DNA from: Gemmata palustris
GTDB taxonomy: Bacteria; Planctomycetota; Planctomycetia; Gemmatales; Gemmataceae
Direction of reading: 5' to 3'
Assembly (NCBI RefSeq): GCF_017939745.1
Contig: NZ_JAGKQQ010000001.1
Span: 5,704,001-5,768,000, forward strand
DNA length: 64,000 nucleotides
Shown: in pieces, positions 27,716 through 31,511 of the stretch
How the letters are laid out: the number at the start of each line of letters is the position of its first letter
Numbering within the stretch: the first letter of the stretch is position 1
Program-made: the position numbers and the translations under genes
Notes under the pieces: generated by a model
Databases searched by the model: none
What the model was told of the DNA's origin: nothing
The model's input: only the letters and a program-made list of their open reading frames with translations

Positions 27716-27787
27716 GTCGGCTGGTAATCGCAAACGCGACTCGTCGTTCCCCTCATTCCGCCAGCCGGCTCACGCCGGCCGTCCGCC
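27698..27787. repeat. Palindromic repeat that contains both convergent gene ends
   Basis: Arms 27698-27724 and 27761-27787 (27 bases, two differences) with a 36-base spacer. They share GGCCGGCGTGAG with the palindrome at 24975-25060. The 5' arm holds the end and stop of DUF1464 (27715) and the 3' arm the end and stop of cbiX (27770). Probably a bidirectional terminator. Confidence 0.8.
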
Positions 27788-28150
27788 CAGCGATTCACCC
27801 GCCCGCTGTTCCACCACGTCGACCAGCAGCGGGTGCCGGCCCAGCGGTTCCGCGAGCACGAACCGCACGTCGGGGAAGCGCGCGCTCAACGTGTCGCGTG
27901 CTTCGGTCAGGTCTTCGGCGACGTGGATACCGGGCGAAAGAAAATACGGCAGCAAGATCACGTCTGTTGCGCCGGCTTCCACGCAGTGCGTGCCGCCGGT
28001 TTCGATGTTCGGTTCGGCCAGTTCCAGGTACGACACGCGAACGACGGGGTACCGCCCGCGCTCGCGCAGAGCGGACGCGACGAACTCCAGATCGGCGTTC
28101 GCCTCGGGCCGGCGGCTGCCGTGTGCGATGAGTAAGAGCGCGGTTGGCAC
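27770..28150 (-). CDS. cbiX: Small sirohydrochlorin cobaltochelatase CbiX-like protein
   Basis: 126 residues, the size of the short CbiX type, from a GTG start at 28150 with TTGGAGAGAG upstream. Motifs: LLIAHGSRRPEANADLEF with the metal-binding histidine H10, and PYFLSPGIHVAEDL with the second histidine. The family inserts cobalt (or iron/nickel) into sirohydrochlorin for tetrapyrrole synthesis; the exact metal cannot be judged. It is convergent with DUF1464, and both genes end in the same palindrome, giving the same last residues RPA. The divergent kinase gene begins 96 bases away. Confidence 0.85.
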   Translation of the reverse strand: MPTALLLIAHGSRRPEANADLEFVASALRERGRYPVVRVSYLELAEPNIETGGTHCVEAGATDVILLPYFLSPGIHVAEDLTEARDTLSARFPDVRFVLAEPLGRHPLLVDVVEQRAGESLGGRPA

Positions 28151-28245: not shown

Positions 28246-29817
28246 ATGCTCGGAGCGCGCGTCGGCAACTGGTTCGTGGAAGTGGAGATCGGGCGGGGGC
28301 CGCTCGGCGTGGTGTACCGCGCGCGCGGGTTCGACGAGCCCGAGCGCTTCGCCGCGGTCAAGGTGTTTACCGAGGTCCGCGACCCGGCCGCGGTGCAGCG
28401 CATCTCGGCGGAATTGCTGCCGCTCCAGCGCCTGGACCACGCGAACATTGCCAAGGCGCTCGATTGCGGGACGCACGGCGGGTTGGCGTTCGTCGCCACG
28501 GAGTTCATCGACGGCACCGACTGCGCGAAGCGCCTCGAATCCGGGCGCTTGCCGTGGCGCGAGGTGCTCAGTGTCGCGGTGCAAGCGGCCCGTGCCCTCA
28601 AACACGCTCACAACCGCAACGTGTTGCACCGCGACCTCAAGCCCGCGCACCTCGTTCTAACGGACGACGGTACGCTGAAGGTTCTCGCGTTCGGGCTCGC
28701 GAAGGTGTTCCCCCCTCCGCCCGGCCACAGTCCCGCGATCGGGTCGTCGGCTTACCTGCCGCCCGAAGCCGCGAGCGGGAAGCCACTGACCCGGCGCAGC
28801 GATTTGTATTCGCTCGGCGGCGTGCTTTACACTCTCGCCACCGGTCGGCCGCCGTTCTCCGCGGGGTCCGTTGTCGAGCTGATGCACAAGCAGTGTTACA
28901 CGCTCCCCGAGCGCCCGGCGCTGCTCGTGAACGATCTGCCACCGGAAGTAGACGAGTTCATTTGCACGCTGTTGGACAAGAACCCGGCGCGCCGACCCGG
29001 TACCGCGGGGGCACTTCTCGAAGAACTCGAGCGGATTCGCGGGAAATTGGAACGCAAGGGCGAAAAGCTGACGTGGCCCATGAAGCTCACGCCCGATACC
29101 GCGGAAATGGCGGCACTGCCCGCGGCCCTCGGCGGGGTCGGTGAGGGAGCGGAGGCGCAACCGGAAACGCGGCCGCTGTTCAAGCGCCCGGCGATCGTGA
29201 TCCCGTTGTTCTTGCTGGTGGTCGCGGCCCTCGTGCTGCCGTTCGCGTGGCCGTCCCCGTCGGCCGACGAGCTGTTCAGCTCCGCGCGACCGCTAATCGA
29301 ATCGGAGAACCCGGACGACTGGGACGCGGCGGAGAAGTACCTGGAACCGCTTGCGCGGAAGTACCCCGACCGGTATAAGGACGAGGTCGCGGACGCGCGG
29401 CGGAAGGTCAAGGACCGGCGCGAGCTCCGGCGCGCGATCGGCGACGGCGCGAAGGCCGATCCGCGCACGGATGCCGCACGCGGCTACCTGCGCGGGTTGC
29501 GGCTCGCTCAGATCGGCGAGCACGCACAAGCGCGGGCCGCATGGGACGGGGTCGTGACCGCGTTCGGTCCGGTGAAGAGTGAGGCGCGCTGGGTGGAACT
29601 GGCCCGTGCGGGGCTGGCGCTCCTGGCCCAACCGGGCGCCCAAGTGCCGCACCAGCTGCTCGACCGCGAGCCGGTGCGCGCAGCGCTCGAACGCGCGAAG
29701 GAGCTCGACACACAGGGCCGCGGGGCGGAGGCCCGTGCGATCCGGGACGCGCTGCTCGCGCTCGCCGAGGGCGACCCGGTCGTGCGTCAGATGGTCGAAG
29801 ACGCCCGGAAGAAGTGA
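28246..29817 (+). CDS. Ser/Thr kinase-like protein, predicted pseudokinase
   Basis: 523 residues from the ATG at 28246. The kinase-like domain (residues about 8-270) has the glycine loop GRGPLGVVYRAR and the lysine in AVKVF, but the catalytic loop is HRDLKPAHLVL with H135 where asparagine is expected, and DFG is AFG (A148). Both metal-binding residues are thus lost, although HRD is kept. A membrane helix (IVIPLFLLVVAALVLPFAW) follows, then a helical extracytoplasmic C-terminus with KYLEPLARKYPDRYKDEV, TPR-like. A regulatory or scaffolding role is likely. The next gene encodes another kinase with intact residues 95 bases later, a natural partner. Confidence 0.88.
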   Translation: MLGARVGNWFVEVEIGRGPLGVVYRARGFDEPERFAAVKVFTEVRDPAAVQRISAELLPLQRLDHANIAKALDCGTHGGLAFVATEFIDGTDCAKRLESGRLPWREVLSVAVQAARALKHAHNRNVLHRDLKPAHLVLTDDGTLKVLAFGLAKVFPPPPGHSPAIGSSAYLPPEAASGKPLTRRSDLYSLGGVLYTLATGRPPFSAGSVVELMHKQCYTLPERPALLVNDLPPEVDEFICTLLDKNPARRPGTAGALLEELERIRGKLERKGEKLTWPMKLTPDTAEMAALPAALGGVGEGAEAQPETRPLFKRPAIVIPLFLLVVAALVLPFAWPSPSADELFSSARPLIESENPDDWDAAEKYLEPLARKYPDRYKDEVADARRKVKDRRELRRAIGDGAKADPRTDAARGYLRGLRLAQIGEHAQARAAWDGVVTAFGPVKSEARWVELARAGLALLAQPGAQVPHQLLDREPVRAALERAKELDTQGRGAEARAIRDALLALAEGDPVVRQMVEDARKK

Positions 29818-29912
29818 AAATGGGGTAGCGTGAAACCCGGAGGGGCACGATCTCTGCTCCTTTTCGCCCGGTCCTCGATTCCGATTCCCGATCCCTACTC
29901 ACCTCTCTACTC

Positions 29913-31511
29913 ATGGCCACACCCGCCACGACCGCCCGCGAGTACCGCACGCTGCTCGCGAAGAGCAAATTGCTCCCGCCGGAGGAGGTGGAGGCGCAGT
30001 ACCGGCAGTGGCAGCAGGAGCGCCCCGGATCGGACGACCGCGTGGACTCGTTCCGCCGGTTCCTCGTCGCGCGGAAGTGCCTCACGGATTACCAGGCGGC
30101 GCTCCTCCAGCGCGGGCGCTCGGACGGGTTCTTCCTGGGCGGCTACAAGATCCTCGATCGCATCGGCAAGGGGCAGATGGGCGGCGTGTACAAGGCCGTT
30201 CACAACTTCGGGCAACTCGTCGCACTCAAGATCCTGCCCGCGTCGAAGGCGAAGAACCCGCACACGCTGGGGCGGTTCCAGCGCGAGGCCCGGCTGCTCA
30301 CGCAACTCGATCACCCCAACGTGGTCCGCGCCTACCAGGTCGGCGAGAGCTCCGGCGTTCACTACATCGCGATGGAGGTCCTGGAGGGCGAGACGCTCGG
30401 CGAGGCGCTGGAGCGCCGGAAACAGTTGCCGTGGGCCGAGGCCGCGCGGCTGATGCGCCAGGTGCTCGACGGGCTCCAGCACTTGCACGACCGGCGCACG
30501 GTCCACCGCGACCTGAAGCCCACCAACATTATGCTCGTCCCGGAGCCGGTGAAGGGGAAGCCCGACACCACCTGGGACGCGACCGCGAAGATTCTGGACG
30601 TCGGGCTCGGGCGCGAACTGTTCGACGACGAGATACCGGAAGGGCAGATCGATACGCAACTCACACAAGAAGGGTCGGTTCTGGGCACGCCGGACTACCT
30701 CGCGCCGGAGCAGGCGAAGGACGCGCGCTCGGCCGACATCCGGGCGGACATTTACAGCGCCGGGTGCGTGCTGTACCACTGCGTCACCGGGCGGACGCCG
30801 TTCCCCGATGCGAACATCATGGCGCAGATCCTCAAGCACGCGACCGAGAAGCCGGCGCCGCTCGGCTCGATCGTGCCCGATCTGCCCGCCGGGTTCCAGC
30901 AGGTGGTCGACCGGTTCATGGCCAAAGCGCCGAACGAGCGGTTCCAAACTCCGGCGGAAGCGGCCGCGGCATTGAAGCCGTTCGACACCGGCGGCGCCCC
31001 GGCCGCACCGTCGAAGATCGCGCCCGCTTACAAGGACTGGCTGGCGAGCGAATCGCAATTGGAAATGCCGAAAGAGATTCTTCAGGACACGATCGTAAGG
31101 CCCCACGCAGCGGTCCCCGCGAAAGCCGCCGGCCCCGCAATAAGTGCTACCTCAAAGTCGTCCCCCGGTAAAGCCGTACCCGCTCCCAAGAGTGGTACGA
31201 CATCGCTTCCGGCCAAGCCCGCTCCCGCGCGCCCGGCCCCCGTGCCCGTGCCGGCACCACTGCCGCTGCCCGTTCCTATCCCCATCCCGGCGGTTGAAGA
31301 AGTCGATGTCGAACTCGTGACAGAGCCGATGGGGGCGCCCCTCGCGCGGCCCGTGCCGGTCCCTCCCGTGCGCCCGCTCTGGCAACCGGACCGACGCGAC
31401 TGGATCATGCTCGCTGCGGGGGCGACGGGGGTGCTGTCCGCGGTCGGGATCGGCTACGGTCTGGCCCGCGCGCTTCGCCGGAAATCGGAGCCGACGGAAG
31501 AAGAGAAGTGA
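29913..31511 (+). CDS. Ser/Thr protein kinase, membrane anchored
   Basis: 532 residues. An N-terminal helical region of about 70 residues (LPPEEVEAQYRQWQQ) precedes the kinase domain: GKGQMGGVYKAV, K106 in VALKIL, HRDLKPTNIML (D200, N205) and DVG in place of DFG with D229 kept. It is therefore expected to be active. A proline/alanine-rich spacer (about 400-480) and a C-terminal membrane helix (WIMLAAGATGVLSAVGIGYG) follow. It is in tandem with the pseudokinase at 28246. The target is unknown. Confidence 0.9.
   Translation: MATPATTAREYRTLLAKSKLLPPEEVEAQYRQWQQERPGSDDRVDSFRRFLVARKCLTDYQAALLQRGRSDGFFLGGYKILDRIGKGQMGGVYKAVHNFGQLVALKILPASKAKNPHTLGRFQREARLLTQLDHPNVVRAYQVGESSGVHYIAMEVLEGETLGEALERRKQLPWAEAARLMRQVLDGLQHLHDRRTVHRDLKPTNIMLVPEPVKGKPDTTWDATAKILDVGLGRELFDDEIPEGQIDTQLTQEGSVLGTPDYLAPEQAKDARSADIRADIYSAGCVLYHCVTGRTPFPDANIMAQILKHATEKPAPLGSIVPDLPAGFQQVVDRFMAKAPNERFQTPAEAAAALKPFDTGGAPAAPSKIAPAYKDWLASESQLEMPKEILQDTIVRPHAAVPAKAAGPAISATSKSSPGKAVPAPKSGTTSLPAKPAPARPAPVPVPAPLPLPVPIPIPAVEEVDVELVTEPMGAPLARPVPVPPVRPLWQPDRRDWIMLAAGATGVLSAVGIGYGLARALRRKSEPTEEEK

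Follow-up and report, generated by a model that had tools for sequence, protein, structure and literature searches.

A membrane-anchored pseudokinase encoded beside a canonical Ser/Thr kinase in Gemmata palustris, a candidate sensor subunit of a two-part receptor kinase

The locus and its two kinase-fold proteins

The window analysed here is a stretch of 64,000 nucleotides from the 9.2 Mb, three-contig genome of Gemmata palustris. Two genes lie in tandem on its forward strand, to which all coordinates refer unless otherwise stated: P1 (28246..29817), whose reading frame, Pfam match, motifs and orthologues point to a membrane-anchored sensor pseudokinase of 523 aa, and P2 (29913..31511), by reading frame, Pfam match and motifs a Ser/Thr kinase of 532 aa with canonical catalytic residues. 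The coordinates, the start codon and the gap of 95 bases between the two genes were re-read from the sequence and agreed with the initial annotation. A cbiX-type chelatase gene (27770..28150, reverse strand; PF01903, 105.1 bits) is divergent from P1. A promoter scan found no sigma-70-like promoter, and a terminator scan gave two terminator-like sites, one of them between P1 and P2, that did not stand above shuffled sequences.

The kinase-fold domain of P1 occupies residues 1-272 (28246..29061), with a match to Pfam PF00069 over residues 12-256 that reaches 136.1 bits (cut-off 31.7) and identifies a Hanks-type fold. The AlphaFold2 model (mean pLDDT 81.9) was bilobal and had its best PDB match in PknB of M. 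tuberculosis (6i2p, TM-score by target 0.81), and the best 50 matches in a viral fold library were mostly annotated kinases, with some lacking a name. The head has a Gly loop (GRGPLG, residues 16-21), the VAIK-type Lys39 (28360..28362), Glu56 and the HRD motif at residues 128-130 (28627..28635). Both metal ligands are missing: His135 (28648..28650) replaces the metal-binding Asn of the catalytic loop and Ala148 (28687..28689) replaces the DFG Asp, giving AFG. The initial annotation had read the two replacements, the Lys and the HRD correctly. The activation segment (residues 148-175, 28687..28770) is also altered, being Pro-rich and without its Thr pair. P1 is a pseudokinase by the motif definition (loss of the VAIK Lys, the HRD Asp or the DFG Asp, any one being enough) and is probably without kinase activity, but since Lys39, Glu56 and the HRD Asp are kept it may still be able to bind nucleotide.

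Beyond the head there is a single transmembrane helix at residues 315-334 (29188..29247; hydropathy peak of 2.86 at 316-334, model helix 315-334), followed by an all-helical ectodomain (29248..29814) with helices across 340-522 in the model. Modelled alone, the ectodomain gave a pLDDT of 81.8 and a pTM of 0.37. The Pfam TPR_14 match fell below its cut-off, the best Foldseek E was 0.068 and the VIA Z of about 9, mainly to short TPR or 14-3-3 pieces, is within the range common for helical repeats, so that the ectodomain is called TPR-like at best. The heads of P1 and P2 are placed in the cytoplasm, a predicted topology that follows from their need for ATP and agrees with the part of PMC11032199 available.

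The kinase domain of P2 (residues 78-345, 30144..30947) matches PF00069 at 163.9 bits (cut-off 31.7) and contains Lys106, HRD at 198-200, Asn205 and Asp229. The claim of a downstream neighbour with all kinase residues was therefore correct, though the motif in the DFG position is DVG. Close to its C-terminus, after a DRRD motif, P2 has a conserved hydrophobic segment (31401..31469) and then a short tail; for the tandem rows with a called segment, this tail measures 13-22 aa. The segment passed the hydropathy threshold in 46 of 56 P2 rows (26 tandem copies and 30 best matches out of 30 chosen genomes) and is weak in the window copy, which falls below it. A recent tandem duplication as the origin of P1 and P2 was not supported; the two have 33% identity (91 bits), and P2 ranks far down among the 106 own-genome matches of P1 listed, which came from scoring 150 of 171 first-look candidates.

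Loss of catalytic residues within the P1 family

Of the 95 family genomes searched with P1 at a cut-off of E 1e-60, 56 gave a match, at one place per genome. One match, L057 in G035, runs into a contig end, has no motif region and stands outside the motif, tree and tandem counts. The remaining 55 rows varied widely in motif state: 25 had Ala, Gly or Ser in place of the DFG Asp, nine kept it and had lost the HRD Asp (Glu in 3, Asn in 3, Gly in 2 and Ser in 1), one had Asn to His as its sole change and 20 were fully canonical. All 25 DFG-less rows fell into one clade (support 100/99) in a careful tree built with the motif columns removed, and 24 of them have His135, with Asn in G011; His is also present in this column in G006 and G043. 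The conservation of A148 and H135 that the initial annotation proposed to check in orthologues thus holds clade-wide as loss of the DFG Asp and, with one exception, as His. Orthologues with restored DFG and Asn had been named there as a finding that would refute its proposal. Taken literally such orthologues exist, as the 20 canonical rows, but all lie outside the clade and are regarded as ancestral rather than restored because of the rooting on relatives from the same order: four outgroup genomes from another family were all canonical and the root fell on a canonical kinase, in a quick tree that leaves out the partial rows L043 and L279.

The rooted phylogeny shows a canonical ancestor, after which catalytic residues (HRD Asp, Asn or DFG Asp) disappeared repeatedly and through differing substitutions. 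A fewest-changes count that allowed regain required four changes of the canonical state over the 55 rows. If regain is excluded, eight losses can be read by eye off the rooted tree, namely the 25-row clade, Glu in G051-G053, Gly in G045/G046, Asn in G007/G008, Asn in G034, Ser in G043, His only in G006, and G068-G070, with the caveat that the placement of the long branches G034, G043 and G074 is uncertain, as is that of G068-G070 (branch 4.2). G044, which is canonical, is placed inside a mixed group. The three loci from G068-G070 (L272-L274), which belong to one genus, keep the P1 ectodomain behind a head that has ceased to score as a P1-type kinase, a fully lost version.

Residues 271-523 of P1 matched a frame in 54 of the 55 fetched loci, the lone miss being the contig-end cut L043. 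A C-terminal P1 query found matches in 64 of the order's 102 genomes, and the ectodomain is about 130-200 aa long in uncut rows. The membrane anchor and helical ectodomain were retained while the catalytic residues went.

Most canonical relatives have an activation loop of the form LTxTGG..GTAE[YF]LSPEQ, with GT before SPEQ. In the DFG-less clade the loop is often Pro-rich, and that Thr pair and the Thr of the P+1 region are lost; the missing Thr pair likewise suggests that P1 abandoned phosphorylation-dependent activation. Other residues persist. In the 24 clade rows that can be counted when the partial L043 is omitted, Lys39 is kept in all, Glu56 in 23 and the HRD Asp in 22, with Glu in the other two. 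This retention, combined with the loss of both metal ligands, would fit a kinase of the CASK kind, transferring phosphate without Mg. CASK has itself lost the catalytic-loop Asn. It also lacks the DFG Asp, keeps its Gly loop and Lys, and is cation-independent and indeed cation-inhibited, according to the available part of PMC4718504. The likeness is one of working and no homology is claimed. Unlike CASK, P1 lacks MAGUK domains and has a membrane helix. An active CASK-like P1 is nevertheless improbable, given that the Thr pair and P+1 Thr are gone in the clade, that two of its rows have HRE and that sister lineages have lost the HRD Asp outright.

His135, found in 23 of the 24 rows and in the same column of G006 and G043, could alternatively be a new active-site residue serving a different ATP chemistry. 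Such changes are known from other pseudokinases, with AMPylation by SelO and glutamylation by SidJ as examples in the part of PMC12599244 available. However, nothing positive points to this for P1, and replacing Asn by His takes a single base change that may recur through ease of mutation, so that a change of chemistry is very improbable.

Studies of selection gave no indication of relaxed constraint. Kinase-domain dN/dS for six pairs with the window copy was 0.085-0.140 for P1 and 0.095-0.316 for P2, and for all pairs with dS under 1.2 the medians were 0.197 (124 pairs from 23 DFG-less clade rows) and 0.241 (53 pairs from 17 canonical rows). The pseudokinase domain is constrained as much as its canonical relatives. 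The loss of the first Gly of the Gly loop in six of the 24 clade rows might suggest a decaying gene, but with low kinase-domain dN/dS, an intact frame and clade-specific residues that have become fixed this has next to no probability; decay or sequencing error is ruled out as a source of substitutions that are clade-wide. The description of P1 as a pseudokinase is backed by the clade-wide loss of both metal ligands, the loss of the activation-loop Thr pair and normal purifying selection.

Pairing with P2 and a candidate division of labour

Attempts to establish whether P1 and P2 belong together were based on 46 judgeable rows, nine contig-end rows being left out. P2 lies directly downstream of P1 on the same strand, at 29-413 bases, in 25 rows including the window, and at about 4.7 kb in the close relative G009 (L065 7450-12104). 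With the latter included the tandem occurs in 26 of the 46 rows, all inside one 36-row clade. Tandem rows are non-canonical in P1 in 25 cases and canonical in one (G074), while the non-tandem rows comprise six that are non-canonical, with P2 absent from the downstream stretch read, and 14 that are canonical. No association between tandem order and catalytic loss was found in an independent-pair test, for which there were four pairs only. G074, a single row of uncertain placement, would fit pairing before loss. In 32 of the 55 loci P1 has the divergent cbiX-type gene as a neighbour, and P1 is canonical in 10 of these; the common neighbour marks these canonical and non-canonical versions as positional orthologues. 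Eight of the 55 loci, each with a tandem P2, contain a nagA-type gene.

P2 is canonical in all 26 tandem copies, and Glu occupies the DFG column in two of the 30 non-tandem copies; L298 (G034) and L307 (G050) are P2 orthologues with Glu aligned to the DFG Asp by automatic alignment. A co-evolving interface was considered and rejected. Clade-specific sites do occur in P1 (e.g. 58, 61, 116, 217, 220, 221) but were discounted, since the groups compared differ in depth and P2 has no matching sites; among the 56 P2 rows, the thresholds used gave no site that sets tandem copies apart from the others. The anatomy of the two proteins appears complementary, P1 having an ectodomain without catalytic residues and P2 having catalytic residues with a short tail only.

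The initial annotation proposed that P1 binds and regulates its neighbour. The conserved gene pair and complementary anatomy speak for this, whereas the lack of tandem-specific P2 sites, the lack of a branch association and the six unpaired rows speak against it, leaving the proposal plausible. We suggest that P1 is a signal-input, non-catalytic sensor subunit acting through an active kinase, most likely P2, which we give about an even chance of being right. The canonical P1 of the tandem row G074, the weak hydrophobic segment of the window P2 and the terminator-like site between the genes also count against this reading. The ancestor would have been a receptor-type Ser/Thr kinase with canonical residues, its head inside, one membrane helix and a helical ectodomain outside, from which P1 would descend in place. 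The head would then have lost both Mg ligands and the activation-loop Thr sites under persisting selection, the ectodomain would sense an envelope signal, and the pseudokinase head would dock on an active kinase, in the main the adjacent P2, and switch it on, off or into place. The descent, residue loss, selection, complementary anatomy and conserved pairing are observations; the docking of P1 and the direction of regulation are suggested by them.

A rather unlikely but serious alternative is that P1 is a genuine sensor pseudokinase with some other partner, for instance as a phosphorylated scaffold recruiting an FHA-type protein, and that P2 is a mere neighbour. Non-canonical P1 proteins without an adjoining P2 are consistent with this, as are P2-like matches at E 1e-60 in 94 of the 95 family genomes whether or not P1 was found. 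There is also the precedent of MviN, which is reported to act as such a scaffold (PMC12599244, part available). What argues for P2 as the partner is that the pair is kept in 25 tight rows and one spaced row across several genera, and that the anatomies are complementary.

A sensor without catalysis adjoining catalysis without a sensor leads to the reading of P1 and P2 as a two-part receptor. More tentatively, and with somewhat less than an even chance, the Gemmataceae may possess a receptor kinase composed of a sensor pseudokinase and a tail-anchored catalytic kinase encoded by a gene of its own, in which the sensor dropped catalysis repeatedly through different residue changes. This would be an independently evolved bacterial counterpart of HER3/HER2, with canonical, half-lost and fully lost versions of one gene still in the same position in present-day genomes.

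Comparison with known kinases and pseudokinases

P1 resembles receptors of the PknB / StkP type in its kinase fold, for which they are the best sequence and fold matches, its one membrane helix and its extracytoplasmic part, but lacks their Asn, DFG Asp and Thr pair. Its ectodomain is also helical and not PASTA; P1 scored 188.7 bits against NCBIfam PknB_PASTA (cut-off 450). The predicted layout of ectodomain, one membrane helix and pseudokinase head is that of HER3. To our knowledge HER2 has no known ligand. The part of the literature available describes HER2-HER3 as a pseudokinase with a catalytic partner, a division of labour between sensor and catalyst for which P1 and P2 are a candidate pair. 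As receptors HER3 and P1 are not homologous, and HER3 retains the metal ligands Asn and Asp (PMC4718504, part available).

The bacterial pseudokinase families described in the available part of PMC12599244 are ActPs1-3, GLW, CP1, DYD and DLHK, and the function of most bacterial pseudokinases is given there as unknown. DLHK has lost the beta-3 Lys, keeps the catalytic-loop Asn and has no membrane helix; ActPs3 / MviN has all three catalytic motifs degraded; and in DYD the beta-3 Lys is replaced by Arg and the alpha-C Glu is absent (PMC12599244, part available). P1 shares the bacterial Hanks fold with these but has the Lys, HRD and a membrane helix. The features tested fail in each case, as P1 keeps Lys39, has His135 instead of Asn and has a membrane helix (against DLHK), keeps Lys39 and HRD (against ActPs3 / MviN) and keeps Lys39 and Glu56 (against DYD), and it is therefore not filed under these three families; ActPs1, ActPs2, GLW and CP1 were not compared feature by feature.

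The words 'planctomyc' and 'Gemmata' are absent from the main text of PMC12599244. Searches of titles and abstract openings found no planctomycete pseudokinase, in a coverage outside which most subscription papers fall. In a 2024 study of planctomycete kinases, a domain had to carry the K-D-D residues to be counted as functional (PMC11032199, part available). The orthologues of P1, many of which are positional, form a graded series that runs from canonical through HRE/HRG/HRN and AFG/GFG/SCG to one genus with an unrecognisable head, and the candidate partner P2 adjoins P1 in many genomes. With such a series and an adjacent candidate partner, the question of why a receptor kinase gives up catalysis is directly testable by orthologue swaps. 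A membrane sensor with a conserved head that lacks metal ligands, beside an apparently able kinase, looks like a bacterial split of sensing and catalysis.

Within its own genome P1 was compared by reading 101 kinase domains, from 98 further places fetched together with P1 and P2. In five of these, one or more of the four residues Lys, HRD Asp, Asn and DFG Asp is missing, and P1 alone has lost just the metal ligands with HRD kept. Since this pattern is unique among the 101 and both substitutions recur in orthologues, it is not attributed to chance. Three more kinase-like domains without catalytic residues were found in the genome (L233, L243, L267). At a further locus (L257, contig 2, 201804-204907) one open frame encodes an intact kinase domain with a second, degenerate one (HGN, DFQ) behind it, a kinase and a pseudokinase in a single chain.
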